Origin: Yoonia vestfoldensis
GTDB lineage: Bacteria > Pseudomonadota > Alphaproteobacteria > Rhodobacterales > Rhodobacteraceae
Direction of reading: 5' to 3'
NCBI RefSeq assembly: GCF_002158905.1
Contig: NZ_CP021432.1
Span: 47,031 to 111,030 of the forward strand
Length of the DNA: 64,000 nucleotides
Part shown: positions 14,833-26,329 of the stretch, one piece after another
Layout: each line of letters opens with the position of its first letter
How positions within the stretch are numbered: the first letter of the stretch is position 1
Translations under genes and position numbers: made by a program
Notes under the pieces: model-generated
What the model was told of the DNA's origin: nothing
The model's database searches: none
The model's input: the letters and a program-made list of their open reading frames with translations, nothing else

Positions 14833-16614
14833 TCAGGCTGCGTTGCGGATACGCGCATTGCCATCGCCAACAATGCGGGCGAGGATTGCTTCCGCATCGA
14901 CACCTGCACCATGCGGGACAAAGACCCGCAGCTGGAAGGCGATGATTTCAGTAAAACACCCGAGGGCCTTGAGACCATCAATCGTGCCTTTGTCCGCCCC
15001 ACCAATCTCCAAGCGCACGTCACCCGCAACGCGGCGGCGCGTCAGCGTCAGGCCGCGCCCCAGATCGACCGGCGCTGTAGAACCAAGGGCCGCTGTCAGC
15101 AGTTCACCCGGCGTTTCAGGCGTCCCTTTCATGAACCGCGCCCGAAGGGCTGCGGCCCCCTCCTCGCTGAGGGTGCGGCCAATCATGCTCGCACATCCTT
15201 CGGGCGTGACGCGATAGATGCGCTCGTTGCTTGTCGGGATGGTCTTCCAGATCGGAAGCAACAGACCCGTGAGCAAATAGAGCTTTGTCGTGGTGGTTTT
15301 GGGAAGACCATCGGCCTCCTCGTCCCAAAGCCGAATGAACTCTAATTGCTCGGTTTTCTCCCAAGCCGAGACTTCAAACTTGCCCTCTTCAAGATAGGAT
15401 TTGCCAGTGGGCCGCACAACCTTGCGCATGAGGGTGACGATGTCTTCGTCATACATCTGCATGGGGCGTTTAGAGATCAGCCCAACCCGCCTTGACGCCC
15501 GATTGACCATAGGGATTTTGTCGACGTTGTTGCGAAGGGCGCCATCGGCGCGCGCGATGTGAACAGGATCTGTCACCTCCAATCCAATGATACGTGTCAC
15601 AGCACCGGATTGCGGGCAGGTCCATAAATCCTCCGCCGAGACCTGTTTGATCGTCTCGCCCCGCAGCGTTTCCACCCCAAGATCGAGCGTGCCTGCGTCC
15701 CGTGCACGCTCTGTCTGATCCGCAATCCGCTGCATGAACTCTGCAAAGAGCGCGTTCTGCATGTGGATCGGCAAGGCCAGCACCCGGTTGAGGAACCGCT
15801 GGATGGGAGGCAATTCTTCGAGCAGCACGCCATCCTTGTCGATCAGCCTCAACGCCGTCCAATCGGTAAAGGTCTCATAGCCCATCGCTTCCGCTCGCCC
15901 CGCAGCAAGATCGGCGTAGTATCCTCGCAGCGCGGATCGCGCGATGGGGCTTTCAAGATTGTCCTCTTCACGAAACATGCCTTGCGAGCCTGTCTCACGT
16001 TGGCCTTTGGTGAGTGCGCCAAGCTGATCAAGACGTTTGCTGATTGTTGAGGTGAAGCGTTTTTCACCGTGCACATCCGAAGTACAGACCCGGAAGAACG
16101 GCGCGCTGACCTGCGCGGAGCGATGCGTACGCCCAAGTCCCTGGATGGCTGCATCCGCGCGCCAGCCGGGTTCCAGCAGATAATGGCGACGCCGCTTCTG
16201 GTTCTTTGCCGTTTGTGCCGCATGATAGGATCGCCCTGTGCCACCCGCATCCGAGAAGATCAGGATGTTTTTCTCGCCATCCATAAACGCCTGCGTCTCG
16301 GACGAATTGCTGCTCGCAGCGCGCTTTTCAATAAAGAGCGCGCCATCGCTAGATTTGAGTGGGCGAATGGACCGGCCTGTGACTTCTGCCACGGCCTCAT
16401 CCCCGAACGCCCAGAGGATTTGATCCAGTGCCGCAGGGATCGGGGCCAACGCCATCAAATCCATCATCGCCTCGTCCCGCAGGGCCAACGCTTCGCGAGA
16501 GACGACCAAGGCCCCTGTTTCATCCCGCAGCGGCTCTGCGACGACATTGCCGTCAATCTCGACCAGCTTCTGGGTGTGGATCGGAAACGCCTGTTCGAGA
16601 TAGCCGAGCACATA
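14833..16614 (-). pseudogene. Strawberry-notch methylase/helicase, C-terminal fragment
   Basis: The 3' part (about 593 codons) of a gene split by a RIT element at 16611-22930 and by IS3 near its 5' end. It encodes the second half of the SF2 helicase: ILIFSDAGGTGRSYHA, then IQGLGRTHRSAQVSAPFFRV, the arginine-finger motif region. The strawberry-notch C-terminal domain follows, ending in MYDEDIVTLMRKVVR, LLTGLLLPIWKTIP and GLKALGCFTEI. Translation as read extends into the RIT inverted repeat and antisense to the first recombinase, so any longer reading is artefactual. A homologous C-terminus occurs at 63398-64000. Confidence 0.85.
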
Positions 16615-16780
16615 ATATGCCGCGTCACCGTTATGCGGAGTTCGGGATTTCAACCTGTTGTTCTGCTGATTCATTTTCGGGTTTCCACTTTGGATAATCA
16701 TGATGCCTCTGCTCTCAACCGCAGAAGGACATCCCCCATGAACTCCCCCTCCAACTCTCCGCTCGGCGGCCGTGCTGACG
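16611..16780 (+). repeat. Left terminal inverted repeat of RIT element (170 bp)
   Basis: Identical, base for base as I read it, to the reverse complement of 22733-22902. It contains a possible -10 box (GATAAT, 16693-16698), the AAGGAC ribosome site, the ATG at 16738 and the first 14 codons of the first recombinase gene. Confidence 0.9.
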
Positions 16781-18264
16781 CCGACGACGTCGCTCTGGTC
16801 AGTGCCTATCTCGCAGACAATCCCCGGCTCTCGAAGGGCGCCGTGGGTGCCGCCCGGCATTTTCTGAAGTGGGCACGCGCCCGGAAGATCCCGACCAGAG
16901 ACCTCGACGCATCGGCGGTGGATCGGTTCCTTCGCCATCGCTGCCGCTGCGGCCGCTACAGCCCTGCGCAACTGTGCAAGCCTGCCTACGCCACAGATAC
17001 ACGCAGATTCCTGAGCTATCTCGAAGCCACCGGGGTGGTCTTCATTGCAAATGAAGTCGCCCGGCTCGGGCAATATCTGGAGGCCCATGCAGAGAAGCTC
17101 TGCGCCACCGGATATAGCAAGGTGACGTACTCGACGCAGCTGACTCAGGCCCGCCATTTCGCGGAATGGGCGCTGCTGATGCGTGTTCCGGCCCACGGAA
17201 TCGATGAGGCTACCATCGATCATTTCGCACGGCATAATTGCCGTTGTGGGGAGAAGACCAAACATGGCAAGGACATGCTGGGCTCGCGCCTCAAGAACCG
17301 CCGCCGTGGTGCGCGTGCTTTTGTCCGGTTCCTGAGAGATGAGGGTCTGATCCCGCCTGAAGCGCCTGACTGCGTTACCACCTGCGATCCGCGCCTGACC
17401 GAGTTCTCGGAATGGTTGCGCCGCGAACGTGGGGTGACGCACGAGACCGTACGGCGCTTCTTGTACGAAGCGAGCCGCTGGCTGGATAGCCTCGGGGCAA
17501 CCCCGAAAGACTACAACGCGGCGGCAATCCGCTCGATCGTTTTGAACCAGGGCGAAGAGCGCTCAAGATCTTCGGTGCGGATGACGGTGACCGTTCTGCG
17601 CGCTTTCTTGCGCTTCACGATTGTTCAGAATCAATGCGCCCCGTTGCTCCTGTATGCTGTGCCATCTGCCGTTTCGCGCAAGCTGTCAACGGTACCACCG
17701 ACGATCCCTCGAACCAAAATTGAAGAGATAATAGCGTCCTGTGGAACCAAAACGCCTGTCGAGATACGGGACCGCGCCATACTCCTTCTGCTCGCGCGGC
17801 TGGCTTTGCGCGCCGGTGACATCTGGCAATTGCGGCTGTCAGACATTGACTGGCGTGCGAGTCGGTTGCGATTGCATGGCAAAGCCAGACGCGAAGTTTT
17901 GGTACCAATACCACAGGATGCTGGGGATGCGCTGCTGACCTATATCGAAGATGTGCGTCCGGTCGTCACAACTGACAGGGTCTTTCTGCGCATTCAGGCG
18001 CCATTCACTCCGTTTCGGTCCTCTGCTGAGATCGCCGGGATCGTTTCCCGTGTCCTTGCCCGGGGTGGCTTCACCGGTCTGCCGACGGGCGCGCACGTGT
18101 TTCGCCATTCACTGGCATCGGCCTGGTTGCGCGGCGGCGCGGATCTTGATCAGATCGGTGTCGCGCTTCGCCACAGCTCGCGTGATACGACCGCGATCTA
18201 TGCCAAGGTCGATATCGAGATGCTGGCAGGTGTGGCCCAGCCTTGGCCGGAGTGCGCATCATGA
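16738..18264 (+). CDS. Tyrosine recombinase 1 of RIT trio
   Basis: 508 residues, ATG within the inverted repeat. The C-terminal catalytic domain has the family residues in order: Arg in LALRAGDIWQL, Lys in LHGKARREV, HVFRHS (HxxR), His in LRHSSRDT, and the nucleophile Tyr in TTAIYAK. The long N-terminal region has SAM-like DNA-binding segments and two unusual Cys-rich elements, RHRCRCGRYS and RHNCRCGEKT, which may bind metal. It is longer than most XerC/D-type enzymes, as expected for the first member of a RIT trio. Its stop overlaps the next start (ATGA), indicating translational coupling. Confidence 0.9.
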   Translation: MNSPSNSPLGGRADADDVALVSAYLADNPRLSKGAVGAARHFLKWARARKIPTRDLDASAVDRFLRHRCRCGRYSPAQLCKPAYATDTRRFLSYLEATGVVFIANEVARLGQYLEAHAEKLCATGYSKVTYSTQLTQARHFAEWALLMRVPAHGIDEATIDHFARHNCRCGEKTKHGKDMLGSRLKNRRRGARAFVRFLRDEGLIPPEAPDCVTTCDPRLTEFSEWLRRERGVTHETVRRFLYEASRWLDSLGATPKDYNAAAIRSIVLNQGEERSRSSVRMTVTVLRAFLRFTIVQNQCAPLLLYAVPSAVSRKLSTVPPTIPRTKIEEIIASCGTKTPVEIRDRAILLLLARLALRAGDIWQLRLSDIDWRASRLRLHGKARREVLVPIPQDAGDALLTYIEDVRPVVTTDRVFLRIQAPFTPFRSSAEIAGIVSRVLARGGFTGLPTGAHVFRHSLASAWLRGGADLDQIGVALRHSSRDTTAIYAKVDIEMLAGVAQPWPECAS

Positions 18265-19172
18265 TGCATTCCCATGTCGATCGCTTCGTTCAACTGAACC
18301 GCGCCCTTGGAAAGAAGTTTGCCGCGCAAGAGACGTCCTTGCGCTCTTTCGCGGATTTCGCTGCAGACCGATCAGCCAGCCACGTGACAACTACCCTGAT
18401 ATTGGAATGGGCTGGTGGCGCCTCGACGCCAGGTGCCGTGCAAATCCGGGTCGATCAAGCCCGGGCGTTAGCCGTATTCCTGCATGCGGAAGATGCGCAT
18501 CACGAGATACCGCCGTTGAATCTGCTGGGCCGTTCACGACGGCGGCGGCCCGCCCCGTATATCATGACGCAGGGCCAGATCAGTCGGATCATGCGGGAAG
18601 CGCTTCTGGTGCCGGGCCTGACATCAATCAGCCCGCTGACTTACCACAATCTTATCGGTTTGCTTGCATCGACAGGTTTGCGGATTTCGGAGGCTTTGTC
18701 CCTCCGGTGCGACGACCTGACCGACGACGGTCTCATGATCCGGCATGGCAAGTTCGGCAAGAGCCGCCTCGTGCCGATACATGCTTCGACCCGCGCCGCG
18801 CTTGACCGCTATCTCGAAGCCCGAGGCGTCGTGCGCAATCCCGGCGATGATCTTTTCGTACTCGGCCATGGCCGTGCCCCGACGGCGACCAGGGTCCACG
18901 TGGTCTTCGTCCGGATCGTCCGCAAGCTCGGATATCGCACTCCGACTGGTCCCGGACCCCGGCTGCACGATCTGCGCCATACATTCGCGGTGCGATCTCT
19001 GGAAGCCTGCGGGAACGATCCGCAGGCGGTCATGCGGCACATGAAGGCCCTGAGCACGTATCTCGGCCATGTCGATATCGCCAACACCTATTGGTACCTT
19101 GAGGCCACGCCAGTGCTGCTGGAGATGATCGCCTCGACCGCCGAAGAGACCTGGATCGGAGGTGCAGCATGA
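18261..19172 (+). CDS. Tyrosine recombinase 2 of RIT trio
   Basis: 303 residues from the ATG at 18261, overlapping the previous stop by four bases. Catalytic residues: Arg in STGLRISEALSL, Lys in KFGKSRLVPIH, HDLRHT (HxxR), His in YLGHVDIANT, Tyr in TYWYLE. The N-terminal core-binding domain runs over about residues 1-105. There is no ribosome site independent of the upstream gene, so translation should depend on it. Probably one of three recombinases acting together on the element ends. Confidence 0.9.
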   Translation: MMHSHVDRFVQLNRALGKKFAAQETSLRSFADFAADRSASHVTTTLILEWAGGASTPGAVQIRVDQARALAVFLHAEDAHHEIPPLNLLGRSRRRRPAPYIMTQGQISRIMREALLVPGLTSISPLTYHNLIGLLASTGLRISEALSLRCDDLTDDGLMIRHGKFGKSRLVPIHASTRAALDRYLEARGVVRNPGDDLFVLGHGRAPTATRVHVVFVRIVRKLGYRTPTGPGPRLHDLRHTFAVRSLEACGNDPQAVMRHMKALSTYLGHVDIANTYWYLEATPVLLEMIASTAEETWIGGAA

Positions 19173-20173
19173 CCCCGCTCGCTCCCGATCTTTCGGCCTT
19201 CATGCAAACCCATCTTCCGGGCGAGTGCGGTGCAAGCCGACATACCATCGCAGCCTATGCCCACGCGTTCACCCTCTTGCTGCGGTTTGCCGCTGGACGG
19301 CTCAAGCGCTCCCCTTCGGAACTCGCAATCGAAGACCTCGATGTTCAGATGATCAGGGCGTTTCTTGAACACATCGAGGTAGGGCGCGCCAATTCCGTCC
19401 GGTCCCGCAACGCGCGGCTGGCGGCGATCAAATCGTTCTTCCGTTTCGTCGAACATCGCCACCCGGCCTGTCTCGAGCAGGCGCTGATGATCCGAGCCCT
19501 GCCCGTCAAGCGCACGGATACAAGGCTCATCGACTACCTGACCCGGGAAGAACTCCAGGCCCTGCTTGCCGCACCGAACCGCCATACGCTTGGGGGACTG
19601 CGTGACCGGGCGATGCTGCACCTGGCCTATGCTGCGGGCTTGAGGGCGTCCGAGCTGCTCGCAGTGCGAATGGGCGATTTTCCTGAAGGCTCGTTTTCCA
19701 GCGTGCGGATTCTTGGCAAGGGTCGGCGGGAGCGGATTCTGCCGCTCTGGAAAGAGACCCAGGCCGCCATTCGCGCGTGGCTGGCTGTCCGGCCAGGCGA
19801 TGCGGGGCCGGAACTATTCCTGAACCGTGATGGTCGCCAGATGACACGGGACGGGTTCGCCTACAGGCTCCGGCAGCATGTGGTGACAGCTGAACGCTCG
19901 GCGCCGTCGATCGCCGCAAAGCACGTCACCCCGCATGTGCTACGACACAGCTGTGCGATGCATACACTTCAGGCAACCGGCGATGTCCGCAAGGTCGCGC
20001 TCTGGCTCGGTCATGCCAGCATCCAGACAACGGAGATGTATCTGCGCGCAGACCCGACCGAGAAGCTCGCGCTCTTGGATGCCCATCACGCACCGTTGAT
20101 CAAACCGGGCAAGTTCCGGGAACCCTCGGACAAGCTGATGCAGATATTGGCGGCGGCCACGCAGCGTTCCTGA
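19169..20173 (+). CDS. Tyrosine recombinase 3 of RIT trio
   Basis: 334 residues, XerC/D-like, ATG overlapping the previous stop (ATGA). Catalytic residues: Arg in AAGLRASELLAV, Lys in GKGRRERILPL, HVLRHS (HxxR), His in LGHASIQT, Tyr in TEMYLR. The domain arrangement is canonical (core-binding about 1-100, catalytic about 115-315). It ends 40 bases before the stop of the convergent primase-helicase gene, with a hairpin between them. Confidence 0.92.
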   Translation: MTPLAPDLSAFMQTHLPGECGASRHTIAAYAHAFTLLLRFAAGRLKRSPSELAIEDLDVQMIRAFLEHIEVGRANSVRSRNARLAAIKSFFRFVEHRHPACLEQALMIRALPVKRTDTRLIDYLTREELQALLAAPNRHTLGGLRDRAMLHLAYAAGLRASELLAVRMGDFPEGSFSSVRILGKGRRERILPLWKETQAAIRAWLAVRPGDAGPELFLNRDGRQMTRDGFAYRLRQHVVTAERSAPSIAAKHVTPHVLRHSCAMHTLQATGDVRKVALWLGHASIQTTEMYLRADPTEKLALLDAHHAPLIKPGKFREPSDKLMQILAAATQRS

Positions 20174-20206
20174 CCGGACGCGTAACAACTGGCGTCCCGC
20201 GTCCGG
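20174..20206. terminator. Hairpin between convergent RIT genes
   Basis: Perfect 9-bp inverted repeat CCGGACGCG / CGCGTCCGG with a 15-base loop, between two convergent stops. There is no T run on either side, so it is a plausible bidirectional terminator or collision barrier rather than a classic one. Confidence 0.5.
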
Positions 20207-20213
20207 CGGGGCG

Positions 20214-22775
20214 CTATTCCATCACATAGCCGAGCGCCCGATAGCCTGTTCGTCGCTTGGTCGCCATTCTGGACAGGACCGGAACCGAACTGTCGACATA
20301 GTCGACCACCAGGACGTCTTTCTTTCCGTCATGTTGCCGATGCAACCTGCCGACATATTGCGCCAGCGTGCCTTTCCAGGCGATCGGCATGGTCAGGAAC
20401 AGGGTGTCGAGCCGCGCATCATCGAAGCCCTCACCGATGTAGCGCCCTGTCGCGAGGATCAGCCGTTCCTCATCGTCATCGACAGTCAGCCCCGCATGCG
20501 CTGCCTTCCGGTCCTTTGCGGACATGCCGCCGCGGAGCACGATAATGTTTTTCGCAAATCGGGAGAACCGGTCCTGAAGATACTGGAGGTGATCCTTCCG
20601 TTCGGTCAGCACGATCGGCGAGCGTTTGGCCTCCAGTGATTTCAGCACATCGTCGAAGATCAGATCGTTTCGAGCAGGGTCCTCCGCTAACGCGGCATAA
20701 ATTGCAGGTATGGATGGGCGCTCCGCCATGGCGAGGGGCTCCGGCAAACGGAATCTCGTGTGACGTTCACGCGCCCGATGGTGAATGCCGCTTTCGGCGG
20801 CCTGCGATTTGGCGCTCACCTGATGGCGCACGGGGCCGCATTGCATGAAGATGATCGGATGATGTCCGTCTTTTCGGACGACGGTCGCCGACAACCCGGT
20901 GACGTAGCGCGCCTTCGATCTGCGGGCGACCAGTTCAAAGCTTGACGCAGACAGATGATGGCATTCATCGACGATAAGGTGTCCGTAGTCGGCAACAATG
21001 TCGTCTACTTCGCCTTTGCGGACCAGGCTCTGGATCAGCGCCACGTCGATCACACCGGTAGGTTTGCGTTTGCCGCCGCCGATGGTGCCGATCAGCTTCG
21101 GGTCGATCTGCAGAAAGGACTTCAGCCGCTCGACCCATTGGTTTAGCAGTTCCCGGCGGTGAACCAGCACCAGTGTATTGCGTGCACGATGTGCGATCAG
21201 CGCCGCGGCCACGACCGTCTTGCCGAATGCGGTCGTGGCGGCAAGCACACCGGTATCATGTTCGGCCAGGGCGTCAAACGCGCGCGTTTGCGGCGGGCGA
21301 AGTTCGCCACGGAAGCGGACCGTCTCCGGCAAGCGGGTTCCGTCTGCACGTAAATCGTCCAGGTCGGCTGTCGCACCGTGATCGGACAGGAACCCGATCG
21401 CTTCGTCGAAGCAGCCGCGCGGCAGGGCGACGTGTCGGGGATGTAGTTCGGCACAGGACACAATTCGCGGCTTGCCGAATGTCGGCAGCCGCATCGCCTG
21501 GGCGCGATAGAATTCGGGGTTCTGGAACGCGGCCAGCCTGACCAGTTGGGCAATCATGGCCGAAGGCAGCTCTGACCGGTCGAGATAGATCTGGTCTGCG
21601 ACTGTCACCTTGATGGTTTGCGGGATGGGCACATCCAGACGTCGTGGCGTGCTGTGGCGTGACGGAGACATCTTCCAGGGCTCATTCGCCTGTTCGTCAT
21701 CCACCGGCATGCGCACGCCCAACACCCGCCCGGAAAGCTCCGCCGTTTCGACGAGGTCACTCACCGCTGACGCCGACATTCTCGGCAGGGAAGACAAAAA
21801 GGCCCACTGATCGTCAAATGGCCGCATTCCCGCGTCCACAAAGACGCTGTTGCCAGCCTTGCGCGCAGTGTTCTGAAGCGGCAGTGCGATCAGATTGCCG
21901 AAACCGCCGAGCGGCATGATATCCTGGTTTGGAAACAGCCGGTCATAGGAGGCAAAGCCAATCTCCGGCCGCCTTTCCATCGTTTCCGTGATCAAAACCG
22001 ATCCGAGCTGGCGCGCCAGACGGGCGGACACGGGTTCTGAGAAGAAGATCCAGACATGACCGCCGTTGCCCGATCTCGACCGCTCCAGCGCTGCAGGGAC
22101 TCCCTTTGCTCGGCAGGTTTCCAGCAGCGCACTGGCGTCTTCCGCCCAGGATGCCTTGTCAAAATCCGCAGCAAGAAACCAGCATGTATCACCCTGGAGC
22201 AGCGGGTAGACGCCCGCGACAAAATCCCCGCTGCGTCCATCATCACCGCGCAGGTGTTTTTCCATGATGCACTCATTCGGAGGGATGAATTTCTGATGTG
22301 GGCACTCGCCGCATTTGACCTTCGGCTTGCCGCAAATGCCTTTCACCCATTCGTTGGCACAAGCAGGCGAATATCCTGAGCGTTCGGTCTTCCTGTTTTC
22401 CCACCGCACAGGAAACACGTCAGGCCGACCGGCGAATAGACTTCGGAACAGATCGACCTTTTCATGCGACGGCGAACTGTTCGTCACCGGAGCGTCCTCG
22501 AAGGAAGGCTGTTTCACGGCTGGCGCGTGCTCAGCGGCGAGGCGAACCTCGAGGGACGCCATCTCGCGCTGAAGCTGCTGCCGTTCGGCATCCAGATTGG
22601 CTAGACGCGCTCGAACCCGCGCCATTTCCGCCTCGATGTTGCTCTTTTCTGCCACCGCGGTTTCCACCCAATCCTTTCCGTCCCGTCCAGCATAAAGCGG
22701 GAAAGCGGCTCGCGTAAGCAGGCTTTCTCGATCGTCAGCACGGCCGCCGAGCGGAGAGTTGGAGGGGGAGTTCAT
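20214..22775 (-). CDS. TOTE-type primase-helicase (cargo of RIT element)
   Basis: 853 residues from the ATG at 22775, inside the right inverted repeat. The first 14 residues therefore equal those of recombinase 1 (MNSPSNSPLGGRAD). Parts: N-terminal coiled coil (about 40-80); archaeo-eukaryotic primase domain with a CGKPKVKCGEC zinc element, WFLAADFDKA (catalytic acidic motif) and RSGNGGHVWIFF; then an SF2 helicase with TTAFGKTVVA (Walker A), IVDECHHLS, TGLSAT, ATGRYIGEGFD and QYVGRLHRQ. This layout is that of TOTE conflict-system proteins. Possible roles are conflict/defence or replication of the element; neither is shown. It is convergent with the recombinase operon. Confidence 0.88.
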   Translation of the reverse strand: MNSPSNSPLGGRADDRESLLTRAAFPLYAGRDGKDWVETAVAEKSNIEAEMARVRARLANLDAERQQLQREMASLEVRLAAEHAPAVKQPSFEDAPVTNSSPSHEKVDLFRSLFAGRPDVFPVRWENRKTERSGYSPACANEWVKGICGKPKVKCGECPHQKFIPPNECIMEKHLRGDDGRSGDFVAGVYPLLQGDTCWFLAADFDKASWAEDASALLETCRAKGVPAALERSRSGNGGHVWIFFSEPVSARLARQLGSVLITETMERRPEIGFASYDRLFPNQDIMPLGGFGNLIALPLQNTARKAGNSVFVDAGMRPFDDQWAFLSSLPRMSASAVSDLVETAELSGRVLGVRMPVDDEQANEPWKMSPSRHSTPRRLDVPIPQTIKVTVADQIYLDRSELPSAMIAQLVRLAAFQNPEFYRAQAMRLPTFGKPRIVSCAELHPRHVALPRGCFDEAIGFLSDHGATADLDDLRADGTRLPETVRFRGELRPPQTRAFDALAEHDTGVLAATTAFGKTVVAAALIAHRARNTLVLVHRRELLNQWVERLKSFLQIDPKLIGTIGGGKRKPTGVIDVALIQSLVRKGEVDDIVADYGHLIVDECHHLSASSFELVARRSKARYVTGLSATVVRKDGHHPIIFMQCGPVRHQVSAKSQAAESGIHHRARERHTRFRLPEPLAMAERPSIPAIYAALAEDPARNDLIFDDVLKSLEAKRSPIVLTERKDHLQYLQDRFSRFAKNIIVLRGGMSAKDRKAAHAGLTVDDDEERLILATGRYIGEGFDDARLDTLFLTMPIAWKGTLAQYVGRLHRQHDGKKDVLVVDYVDSSVPVLSRMATKRRTGYRALGYVME

Positions 22776-22902
22776 GGGGGATGTCCTTCTGCGGTTGAGA
22801 GCAGAGGCATCATGATTATCCAAAGTGGAAACCCGAAAATGAATCAGCAGAACAACAGGTTGAAATCCCGAACTCCGCATAACGGTGACGCGGCATATTA
22901 TG
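22733..22902 (-). repeat. Right terminal inverted repeat of RIT element (170 bp)
   Basis: Reverse complement of 16611-16780 without a visible mismatch. It carries the same putative -10 box, ribosome site, ATG (22775) and first 14 codons, here used by the primase-helicase. Such identity over coding sequence suggests recent gene conversion or a functional constraint on the whole end. Confidence 0.9.
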
Positions 22903-22930
22903 TTTTATCCGGAGTTCCGGATAAAACATA
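22899..22930. repeat. 32-base palindrome at the right RIT end only
   Basis: Arms TATGTTTTATCCGGA (22899-22913) and TCCGGATAAAACATA (22916-22930) are perfect inverted repeats around GT. The outer arm ends on the direct repeat at the host junction. The left end lacks it. It may be the recombinase binding and crossover site. Confidence 0.8.
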
Positions 22931-25382
22931 GTCGCGCGGTGTCAATGCCCCCTCAACGAGTTCATCATCGGGGTCCATCATCTCCAAGCGGCGCTTCAAG
23001 AGGCTTTCGCCCGTCGAGACCACTTGGATAACGCAAGCATAACCATCGGATATATCCTGCTGAATAGCGCTGACAATTGACGGGGCTTTCATGCCCATCA
23101 GCAGATGATTGAAGAAGCGCTGCTTTGTGCTCTCGAACCGCGACTTGGCGGAGGCTTTTGCAGCGGAAGCATTTGTCTCGCCCGATGCGTCATTGACGCC
23201 TGTCGCGGTCAGCGCGGCCTCCAAGTTATGATGGATTGTGCGGAACGCGCCCGCATAAGCGTCATAGATTTCTGTTTGGGCAGGCGTCAGTGCATGCTCC
23301 AGCACATCGTATTCGACCCCGTCAAAACTCAGCGCCCGCGCCGTATAAAACCCGAGTGTTTTGAGATCGCGGGCCACCACCTCCATGGCCGCCACACCGC
23401 CCGCCTCCATCGCTGAGACAAAGCTCTCGCGGCTGGGGAACGGATATTCTGGCCCTTGGCCCCAGAGCCCGAGCCGGGAGGCATAGGCGAGATTGTGGAC
23501 AGATGTGGCCCCCGTCGCCGAAACATAGAAGACGCGAGCGCGCGGGGTGGCGAGTTGCAGGCGCAGCCCTGCAAGACCCTGCTGGGACGGTTTCGCCCCC
23601 CTGCCCTGCTCCGATCCAGCCGCATTTTGCATCGCATGGGCCTCGTCAAAAGCGAGCACACCATCGAAGTCGTCACCCATCCAGTCGAGAAGCTGGTTCA
23701 GGCGCGTGGTGCCGCATTTGCCGGCAGACCGCAGCGTTGCGTAGGTGACGAACAAGATGCCGTCGCCCATGGTGACAGGCTGGTCGGGCTTCCATTTCGA
23801 GAGCGGTTGGATATCGGCGGGCGAGCCGCCGAGGTCAGTCCAGTCGCGCACAGCGTCCTCAATCAGCGTTGCGGATTTTGACACCCAGACAGCTTTGCGC
23901 CGCCCAGAGAGCCAATTGACCAGAATAAGGCCTGCGCACTCGCGGCCCTTGCCGCAACCGGTGCCATCCCCGAGGAAATAGCCCAAGCGGTAAGCACGGG
24001 CCGCCGCCTCCTCATCACTGCGCAGCATCTTGGTTTGGTCGTCATCTATGGTGAACTTGCCGGGCAAATCGCGCGCATGGGCATCGTTGGCCATGATGAT
24101 GGTTTCCAGCTGGGCCTCAGAGAGAGGGCCCTCTGCAATCAAGCGGTTTGGCAAGCGCAGACCCTCGGCGGCCAGCAAGGAAGGCACGGGTGGTGCGACC
24201 GAGGCCATGGCAATGCTTTCAACCAGCGGCGTTGGGTGTTCCTGTGCGCCGACGATATCGATCCGCTGCGGGCGATAACGGGCGTAGATCTCGGAAATGG
24301 GGGTGTTTTCACGAGGCGTCTCAAGCGTAGCGAACGACAGCGGTGTTGCTGCGTGTTTTGGCGTTTTGGCGGCAGATGCCGTTGATGCGACAGGCTTGCG
24401 CGCCTTGTAAGGCGCTGATCCCATCAGAGGGCGACCGACATTCAATGAGCGTGCCGCCGTCACAGGCGCTACAATCGCGCGCACTTTGGCAATCTGGTCG
24501 ACGATACTGACCGCCGCGTCGAGATCGTCGACAGAGGCGCGGATTATCTCGACGTCATCATCGACCTTATCAAAGACCATCAGCTGGGTATCCACGCTGG
24601 TGCCAAGCTTGCGATAGACATGGCCGGGGATGGTCAGGGCCAGGCTCGGCGTGAGAAGGCTCATTGCCCGCTTCCAATGTGCTGTGTCGCGCTCAGGGGT
24701 GAAGCCCATCGGCATGATCGCAACAAGACGCCCGCCGGGTGCCAATCGTTTCGCGGCTCCGATGAGATGCTTGGCCGCAATGTGCTTGTCGCGGGAGCGA
24801 TCGACCGAGGATGCAAACGGCGGGTTCATCACGATAACGCTGGGGGCTGTTGTTGATGTCAGCAGATCATCGATATGTTCGGCGTCATGTCCGCTCGCCT
24901 GCGCGTCGAACACCACATCGAGCAGCCGCTGGCGAAATGGATCGACTTCGTTGAGCATGAGCTTGGCATCTGCCCGTTTCATGAGCCCCGCCAGCGAGCC
25001 TGTTCCCGCAGAGGGTTCCAGCACCGTCTCACCGTGGCGGATCGCCGCCGCGCGCACGGCGAGGGCCGCGTAAGGAAGCGGGGTCGAGAACTGTTGCAGT
25101 CGGATCTGTTGCTCGGACCGGCGGGTTTCGGTCAAAAGTCGCATCGCGAGGTTCTTGGCAGCACCAATTGGGTCTGACCCGCTCGCATCCAAGAAAAGCG
25201 TTTGAACAGCCGCAGCCTGCATCATGTCATAGGCCATGCGCCAGTTCCATGCACCGCTTGCATCGCTACCGCCAAAGGCGTCGCGCATGATCTTTGAAAG
25301 AGAGGAACTGCGCAGAGGGCCGCGCGCGAGCTCGGCGGCGATCAGCGAGAGGGCTGTTTTAAGCTGGGCGTTAGATGGTGTT
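22931..25382 (-). pseudogene. Strawberry-notch methylase/helicase, middle fragment
   Basis: The largest piece of the split gene (about 817 codons). The N-terminal methyltransferase domain has FSTPLPYAALAVRAAAI, VLEPSAGTGSLAGL (SAM-binding) and VMNPPFASS, the NPPF motif of N6-adenine methylases. Next come the strawberry-notch linker and the first helicase half, with GDGTGCGKGRECAG (Walker A-like), LAFDEAHAM (DEAH) and YVSATGATSV. It now reads through into IS3 sequence at its 5' end (MNHKLSGKPGAV, from 25420) and stops inside the RIT palindrome (22898). It could still be expressed as a truncated MTase-half helicase from those junctions. Confidence 0.88.
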
Positions 25383-25423
25383 TGAACCGCCCCGGGTTTA
25401 CCGGAGAGTTTGTGGTTCAATGA

Positions 25424-26329
25424 TTACGCTGCTTTTTCGTCAACGTTCAAGTTTGCGTAGAATGCCTCCTCTGCTTCGTTCGGTGTAATGTATCCGATGG
25501 CGCTGTGCAGGCGCGTTTTGTTATACCAGTCGACCCACTTGAGAGTTTCCCATTCGACTTGGCCGACCGATTTCCATGGACCGAGAAACTTGATGACCTC
25601 GGTCTTGAACAGGCCGATGATGCTTTCGGCCAGGGCGTTATCGTAGCTGTCACCAACGCTGCCCACCGAAGTATCAATCCCAGCCTCGGCCAGCCGTTCG
25701 GTGTATCGGATCGACAGGTATTGGCTGCCACGATCGCTGTGGTGGATGAGCTTGTCCGCCTCGGACGGGGCGCGCTGGCAGATGGCCTGGTTCAAGGCAT
25801 CGAGCACGAAACCGGTGGTCATCGAGGTCGAGACGCGCCAGCCGACGATTTTGCGGGCGAAGACGTCGATGACGAAGGCCACATAGACCATGCCCTGCCA
25901 GCTGGAGACATAGGTGAAGTCACTGACCCAGAGCTGGTTCGGCATAGCGGCCACGAAAGCCCGGTTCACCTTGTCGTCCGGGCAAGGTTGTGCCGTATCG
26001 GGGTTGGTCGTGGTCACTTTCTTGCCCCGCACAACCCCTTGTAATCCCATAGCCTTCATAAGCCGCTCCACAGTGCAGCGAGCGATATCGTGCCCGCTGC
26101 GGCGTAACTGGTGCCAAACCTTGCGCGCGCCGTATCGGCCCCGACTGCCATCGAAGGCCTCTTTTATGGCGGCCATGTCCAGTTGATCCTGCTTAGCCCG
26201 ATCCGATGCCAGGTCCGGATCACGCTCCACGGCCTTGAGGGCGTAATACGTCGATGGTGCGATCCCCAGAACCCGGCAGATCGGCTCGACACCATGGACA
26301 CGACGGTGATCGTCGATGAACACGATCAT
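25424..26329 (-). CDS. IS3-family transposase orfB, copy 1
   Basis: 301-residue DDE integrase-type catalytic subunit. It starts with an HTH_21-type segment (residues about 40-100, FDGSRGRYGARKVWHQL). The rve domain has the acidic triad in LWVSDFTYV (D), HHSDRGSQY (D) and ALAESIIGLFKTE (E). The start codon overlaps the orfA stop (ATGA). In this family orfB is usually made as an orfAB fusion by -1 frameshifting. Group assignment within IS3 (IS51-like) is tentative. Confidence 0.95.
   Translation of the reverse strand: MIVFIDDHRRVHGVEPICRVLGIAPSTYYALKAVERDPDLASDRAKQDQLDMAAIKEAFDGSRGRYGARKVWHQLRRSGHDIARCTVERLMKAMGLQGVVRGKKVTTTNPDTAQPCPDDKVNRAFVAAMPNQLWVSDFTYVSSWQGMVYVAFVIDVFARKIVGWRVSTSMTTGFVLDALNQAICQRAPSEADKLIHHSDRGSQYLSIRYTERLAEAGIDTSVGSVGDSYDNALAESIIGLFKTEVIKFLGPWKSVGQVEWETLKWVDWYNKTRLHSAIGYITPNEAEEAFYANLNVDEKAA

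Follow-up and report, generated by a model that had tools for sequence, protein, structure and literature searches.

A recombinase-in-trio transposon with a TOTE primase-helicase as cargo at one codon of a plasmid 'strawberry notch' gene: a possible flip on movement and a probable copying of its ends

The described systems closest to the element treated here are the recombinase-in-trio (RIT) elements. In the available parts of the papers on them, they comprise three tandem tyrosine recombinase genes, ritA, ritB and ritC, joined by short overlaps, and they are bounded by inverted repeats with an overlapping palindrome and occur as identical copies within genomes (PMC3414803, PMC2864759, PMC8138268). 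RIT mobility is called undemonstrated in the accessible text of 2012 (PMC3414803), and the part of a 2023 paper available to us includes a table that gives RIT movement as not tested (PMC10214605). RIT elements as such, their terminal palindrome and the twins of D. shibae have already been published, the two identical D. shibae copies being listed in the same 2012 text (PMC3414803). Here we describe a RIT variant in a stretch of 64,000 nucleotides from Yoonia vestfoldensis (contig NZ_CP021432.1, positions 47,031 to 111,030 of the forward strand), referred to as the window. The element interrupts a 'strawberry notch' gene (SNO) and carries a TOTE primase-helicase gene. Comparison with related loci makes it likely that we are dealing with a RIT transposon which targets a single SNO codon, holds TOTE as accessory cargo, crosses over at a short core, may flip in direction as it moves, and has had one end copied onto the other. 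The features are as follows, with the A end lying beside ritA, the T end beside TOTE, and TIR standing for terminal inverted repeat.

14833..16609, minus strand: C part of the interrupted SNO gene (Helicase_C_4)
16610..16614, no strand: 5-bp core ACATA (TATGT in the sense of the host gene), junction with the SNO C part, from comparison with the empty sites L029 and L030
16610..16780, plus strand: A-end TIR, with the recombinase-arm region (about bases 1-90), 5' untranslated region (UTR), ribosome site, and ritA start with 14 codons
16697..16741, plus strand: conserved ritA leader, with a predicted RNA hairpin pairing ribosome site and start
16738..18264, plus strand: ritA, tyrosine recombinase
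18261..19172, plus strand: ritB, tyrosine recombinase
19169..20173, plus strand: ritC, tyrosine recombinase with N-terminal SAM-like domain
20214..22655, minus strand: TOTE primase-helicase counted from its own GTG, 813 aa
22656..22775, minus strand: leader segment beginning at the copied start (MNSPSNSPLGGRAD...), which in the window lineage reads in frame into TOTE
22733..22903, minus strand: T-end TIR, same sequence as the A end
22904..22925, no strand: palindrome TTTATCCGGAGTTCCGGATAAA, 22 bp, on the SNO N side, not in the two empty sites
22926..22930, no strand: second core copy (ACATA), on the side of the SNO N part
22931..25420, minus strand: N part of the interrupted SNO gene (MTS and AAA_34 domains)

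An earlier sequence-only reading of this DNA had described perfect inverted ends of 170 bp that each hold a ribosome site, an ATG and the first 14 codons, and this is right with a slightly longer repeat: positions 16610-16780 and 22733-22903 are 100% complementary over 171 nt, and both contain AGAAGGA-N8-ATG followed by the 14 codons of MNSPSNSPLGGRAD. The end coordinate given in that reading, 22930, includes the 22-bp palindrome and the ACATA core. The three recombinase genes are linked by ATGA overlaps at the ritA/ritB and ritB/ritC junctions and converge on the primase-helicase, as the reading had it; open reading frames (ORFs) and domains agree on this. The three tandem tyrosine recombinases, the inverted ends with their palindrome and the existence of identical copies likewise bear out its assignment to the RIT family. 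The alignment of RitA contains an R-H...R-H...Y stretch, which we take to be the catalytic motif of a predicted tyrosine recombinase. The convergent ORF at 20214-22775 on the opposite strand combines an AEP-TOTE domain (E 1.2e-96; PF22548 score 323 bits against a cut-off of 27) with ResIII/DEAD helicase domains (ResIII 79.5 bits), and the ORFs and annotation of the window hold no other gene between ritC and the T end. With TOTE the element measures 6.29 kb, against about 3.7 kb for its cargo-free sisters. A GATAAT/CATAAT-like box was noticed by eye in the inner arm.

The element is part of a recurrent family. A second copy of 6294 bp, 100% identical, lies on another contig of the same genome, in a host gene that, where its flanks can be aligned, is 78-79% identical to that of the first. 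Fourteen plasmid records (rows H1-H14) each contain a single place that matches 80% or more of the element, with 74-99% identity, and trio and TOTE occur together at 22 further loci among the best 80 of 396 genome-contig relatives, the set that was examined for this combination. The pairing of trio and TOTE is thus not confined to a single sequence, and because the identical second copy sits in a differing host gene and 14 plasmid records carry the element, an assembly fault or chance is ruled out as the source of the identical ends. Across the 390 genomes of the order, PF22548 is matched in 22 and the TIR in 6, the genome of the window among them. The family is found in the plasmid SNO gene of Rhodobacterales, Hyphomicrobiales and Sphingomonadales. 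Elements that are 99.98-100% identical stand inside SNO genes whose alignable flanks are only 70-91% identical, which implies recent mobility. Elements 99.7-100% identical are also present in Pseudodonghicola, Celeribacter and Paracoccus (L048, L049, L050, L070), suggesting recent spread across genera. The TOTE gene is broken or split in L021, L041 and L058. At L015-L017 a TOTE gene and a T end occur with no matched trio, and at L018 a TOTE gene has a mere leader-like remnant, judged by eye; these may be decayed or trio-less derivatives.

The insertion target is a plasmid SNO gene (AAA_34 and Helicase_C_4 domains), entered at one exact codon. Intact SNO genes read GACTACGT|GCTCGGCTA in L029 and GACTATGT|TCTCGGCTA in L030, with the empty-site consensus GACTAYGT|NCTCGGCTA, and comparison with these two sites showed the previously proposed ACATA core to be correct. 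Filled sites have the order SNO N part, TAYGT, palindrome, ACRTA, element, TAYGT, SNO C part, the N-side core being TAYGT in 13 of 14 loci. The palindrome, which is not present in the empty sites L029 and L030, is 20-22 bp long, of the TTATCC...GGATAA type in the window clade and of the TAATGTTG or TTATGCCG type in other RITs; that of L084 is degenerate, with 7 of 10 pairs. Reading of the flanks placed it at the SNO-N side in 14/14 loci, with element directions of 8:6, and again in 39/39 more loci with SNO-N at one flank and SNO-C at the opposite one (17:22), hence in 53/53 loci irrespective of the direction of the element. In all three informative near-identical opposite pairs (window/L019, L013/L014 and L048/L050) the asymmetric palindrome has turned together with the element. 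Since the palindrome thus appears to travel with the element, and since it always lies on the N side in either direction of the element, a crossover at the 5-bp core is the simplest account. Two loci have SNO-C flanks on both sides and no detected palindrome (L056, L060), and a third has SNO-N flanks on both sides and an inverted match longer by about the length of the palindrome (L113); these look like recombinants between opposite copies.

Where a genome holds two near-identical copies, each on its own replicon, they face in opposite directions relative to SNO in all 12 of 12 pairs, for which the two-sided chance is about 0.0005 if the pairs are independent. The pairs comprise the two copies in the genome of the window, C1/C2 (100%), Pukyongiella p1/p2 (100%), D. 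shibae pDSHI01/03 (99.98%; three strains, counted once), Sagittula p5/p6 and Gemmobacter p3/p4 (both 99.98%), S. chungbukense L098/L099 and S. yanoikuyae SHJ L026/L121 (both 100%), S. xenophagum (both copies 100.0% identical to the element of L027), YBL2 (both 80.4% identical to it at 2789 bits, their mutual identity inferred from the equal scores), S. amiense (identity inferred from equal RitA scores) and, from a second RIT family that also sits in this SNO gene, Sagittula L010/L011 and CAP-1 L027/L122 (100%). R. wittichii DC-6 was left out of the count, as the SNO of its second copy was not placed. This second, distinct RIT-like recombinase set occupies another site of the SNO gene, some 110 codons upstream of the first, at L010:10770-14290, L011:1-3561, L012:2292-3521 (where the annotation covers the first gene alone), L027:9870-13392, L122:9915-13392 and L123:1983-5568.

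The opposite twins suggest that each hop may flip the element. The recombinases would cut at the core, which is present twice and inverted around the palindrome when the ends are joined, so that core polarity would set the side of the palindrome and the choice of core would set the direction of the element. The core at the palindrome-TIR boundary is the only one with element DNA on both sides while the element is integrated, and a hop by way of this core would leave the element flipped. This core is preferred because homologous transfer of the SNO region would give copies in the same direction, a free circle with random use of the cores would give opposite copies in half of the cases, and inversion in place would leave the palindrome where it was.

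The two ends of the window element are alike well beyond the ancestral repeat, whose inner border lies near base 90 according to comparison with the cargo-free sisters L064, L066, L068 and L069. These sisters (RitA 64-67% identical) have end repeats of 89-99 nt; at their A end the leader and ribosome site hardly differ and the coding start is related, their T end has by eye a GC-rich, hairpin-like stretch before ritC, and the repeat stops 29-40 nt before the ATG of ritA. Among RITs lacking TOTE with RitA below 60% identity, most end repeats measure 83-101 nt, the exceptions being L071 (304 nt), L072 (229), L074 (115), L075 (36), L076 (180), L077 (264), L097 (55, at a contig end) and L113 (109); by rough arithmetic the long ones end before the ritA start, perhaps with the exception of L071. 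In 19/19 genome loci that carry TOTE and have both ends within the contig, the repeat runs 21-61 nt past the ATG, and the plasmid elements are extended likewise. The TIR counts exclude loci whose contig does not contain both ends (L053, L059, L061, L062, L067, L070, L078 and L082). Because the repeats of the sisters stop before the ATG and those of TOTE carriers pass it, the leader appears to be that of ritA itself, and the 5' end of ritA was probably transferred by copying to the opposite end once TOTE had been captured. Gene conversion or template switching would have carried the sequence from the ritA side to the TOTE side, halting where TOTE or ritC sequence has to be kept.

The degree of identity is in line with such copying. 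Within an element the A and T ends are 98.7, 98.1 and 97.1% identical over arms, UTR and codons 1-7, respectively, against about 82, 91 and 88% between elements, and the A end of the same element is the nearest match of the T end in 13 of 18 cases, a tied one in three (window, L005, L006) and not the nearest in two (L010, L057). For this comparison 20 TOTE elements were chosen to avoid near-identical ones, and L043 and L051, which have no anchor word, were dropped. In L065 a trio of the cargo-free clade is combined with a TOTE 88% like that of the window and with ends 98.4% alike over 190 nt, consistent with a module swap followed by end-copying. At L026 a different cargo gene, for a 434-aa protein, is accompanied by ends of 91 nt. 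This gene (L026:9390-10694) is a convergent cargo beside the T end of a Sphingobium RIT, and its product has no family in Pfam, PADLOC or PHROGs; to judge by their length of about 5.1 kb, elements in other Sphingomonadales may hold cargo of the same 434-aa type.

What the copied start does for TOTE was followed in 36 T-ends (17 and 19 from two frame comparisons, with the frame of L052 assigned in a separate frame scan). It is fused in frame to TOTE in 11 and out of frame in 21, while two are in frame by length yet stopped (L021, L056) and two have lost the ATG (L044, L046), a distribution that is about what chance would give. The start is present at both ends in nearly all measurable members of the TOTE-bearing clade, but a common N-terminus, realised in frame in 11/36, is not supported as a conserved property. 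A shared N-terminus acting as a selected protein tag was ruled out by this frame comparison. RefSeq places the start at the inner GTG in 12 of the 14 plasmid T-ends with a RefSeq start that were compared (L005-L016), at an inner ATG in L017 and at the outer ATG in L020; since, in addition, TOTE genes without their own trio or T end (L018, L031, L032) are annotated with 811-812 aa, the inner GTG is likely the native TOTE start. The leader frame is open to this GTG in 24/27 loci, a count uncorrected for the shared ancestry of the loci, and for the window and L063 the scan missed the position of the GTG by a few codons. Of the two control frames, the second has a stop in 15/27 loci and the third in 27/27, where the ATGA of the start supplies it. 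In 13/27 loci the leader ORF terminates 5-20 nt inside TOTE, an overlap that allows translational coupling. Fused in a minority and overlapping as a leader ORF in many, the copied leader would lead ribosomes toward TOTE, and the copied start may thus still feed its translation. The leader segment is nearly invariant, with 33 of 62 columns unchanged across 17 elements, and its predicted RNA fold pairs the ribosome site and the start (z -2.4 in the window, only -1.2 in L068). IS10 and IS50 offer an analogy for the silencing of read-through transcripts, and by this analogy the paired leader could silence such transcripts arriving from SNO.

The TOTE protein itself aligns in its AEP stretch with the CRISPR-associated PrimPol of PDB 7nqd and in its helicase stretch with XPB, and it is matched by the PADLOC PrimPol model (E 1.3e-88). 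Because cargo-free sisters exist and L060 has apparently lost the gene, TOTE does not seem to be needed for mobility and looks accessory to it; the same two observations speak against the earlier suggestion of self-replication by TOTE. We favour a putative role in conflict of the plasmid or the element rather than in transposition.

Other accounts of the movement have to be set against the flip. Repeated in-place inversion between the inverted cores, with the 12/12 opposite pairs due to chance or to selection of some kind, would be a possible reaction, as the two element-side cores are inverted copies, and it would fit both the overall direction near 50:50 and the variable orientation of the palindrome relative to the element between lineages. 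It predicts, however, that half of the pairs face alike, and that the palindrome stays fixed relative to SNO; because the palindrome has turned in 3/3 informative pairs, we rate this account lower and consider it distinctly unlikely. A part for TOTE in moving the element, for instance by priming copy-out replication of a recombination intermediate, is suggested by the two separate RIT lineages (the window clade and L022) that hold TOTE in the same convergent place and by the alignment of its AEP and helicase stretches with solved enzymes; with trios that look whole without TOTE (L064, L066, L068, L069), the apparent loss in L060, and TOTE genes without an annotated trio within 6 kb (L031, L018), such a part appears unlikely. 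Several observations also weigh against the flip and the core crossover that we prefer. Two of the twin pairs (YBL2, S. amiense) rest on table positions and equal scores, the count being 10/10 without them, and of three diverged co-resident pairs (about 81-94% identical) only N. subterraneum is opposite, CAP-1 and CECT 9361 having the same direction. The N-side core of L007 is AACAT instead of TAYGT. Between lineages the palindrome, read from T to A, varies in orientation relative to the element, with the centre AGTT in the window and AACT in L020, L054, L057 and L058. Finally, neither excision nor a circle nor transposition was observed; a scan of the 390 genomes for a circle-junction pattern gave seven matches, all fitting the ordinary palindrome-TIR boundary, and the pattern is the same for a circle and for an integrated boundary.

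The extended ends admit two further explanations. On the sequence-only reading they are portable start cassettes under selection to supply whatever cargo they adjoin with a common promoter, ribosome site and set of N-terminal residues. The start is indeed present at both ends in nearly all TOTE-bearing elements measured, and in-frame fusion is found in L017, L020, L054, L057, L058 and L063, which the MTSP-type leader marks as one subclade; yet the frame is kept in just 11 of the 36 T-ends, the start is lost in two, and the 811-812 aa TOTE proteins of L018, L031 and L032 do without the leader segment. Nor does the end switch on any cargo, as had been proposed, since the extended form is seen with TOTE alone, and the cargo of L026 and the TOTE of L022 have short ends. 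We regard this explanation as improbable. Much closer to an even chance, though still below it, is a neutral by-product of inward homogenisation up to kept sequence, with no effect on TOTE expression. Short RIT ends are likewise mostly 94-100% alike (L028 85%), tract lengths vary, L044 and L046 lost the start and kept TOTE, and L060 is still extended after its apparent loss of TOTE; what speaks against neutrality is that stops before the TOTE start are rarer in the leader frame than in the second one, a point weakened by shared ancestry. Copying that serves TOTE meets difficulties of its own. The leader is stopped before TOTE in L013/L014, L021 and L056, and the ATG is lost in L044/L046, so that the leader is dispensable. 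The link between TOTE and extension is not absolute either, because L060 has extended ends and no TOTE while apparently nesting within the TOTE clade of the tree, because L022 (Rhizobium) joins a TOTE of a separate lineage to 95-nt ends, and because the ends of L010/L011 are merely about 90% alike. Furthermore, a sigma-70 consensus scan of the ends returned no promoter. The general proposal that RITs move by a polarity-flipping reaction from the palindrome-TIR core, each new insertion being reversed relative to its target gene, and that the near-palindromic joined ends copy one end onto the other and so give the cargo the regulated start of the recombinase, is accordingly one that we put forward tentatively, as somewhat less probable than its negation.

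Beyond the element, an ORF at 25424-26329 (minus strand) lies upstream of the SNO N-part ORF and stops just a few bases short of it. It presumably resembles an IS3-type transposase, and the SNO gene may also be cut by it at the 5' end.

The palindrome rule and the opposite twins provide a concrete, testable strand-exchange model for the movement of RITs with three recombinases, end-copying would be a way for a transposon to pass its own translation start to its cargo, and the finding ties a predicted conflict enzyme to a RIT family that invades one plasmid gene across three orders. A literature search, which left subscription papers outside, found no paper on RITs targeting SNO; in the papers searched, with the same limit, none was found on TOTE, on a RIT with a primase-helicase, on the palindrome-side rule, on end-copying, or on opposite twins and a flip. 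RIT elements have been delimited at about 3.5 kb with the trio only, and the element of the window, at 6.29 kb with TOTE cargo, is therefore a RIT variant. It differs from RIT elements, as far as the available parts of their descriptions go, in the convergent TOTE cargo, and in ends of 171 nt that include a gene start, compared with 28-9 bp (PMC3414803) or 34 bp (PMC10214605); the SNO target, the palindrome-side rule and the opposite twins are without counterpart in those parts (PMC3414803, PMC2864759, PMC8138268). GInt and strand-biased circularizing elements (SE), in the portion of the source at hand, share several tyrosine recombinases and target-site specificity and have a fourth protein (GinD/Srap), a small gene that the window element is without (PMC10214605). 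Tn554-type elements, again from partial texts, share site specificity and tandem tyrosine recombinases, yet have TnpA/TnpB with TnpC in place of three Rit recombinases (PMC3414803, PMC10214605). With TOTE proteins (PF22548) and CRISPR-associated PrimPol, the TOTE of the window shares the AEP domain and the SF2 helicase; unlike them, it is carried in a RIT transposon in which the trio are the sole other genes.

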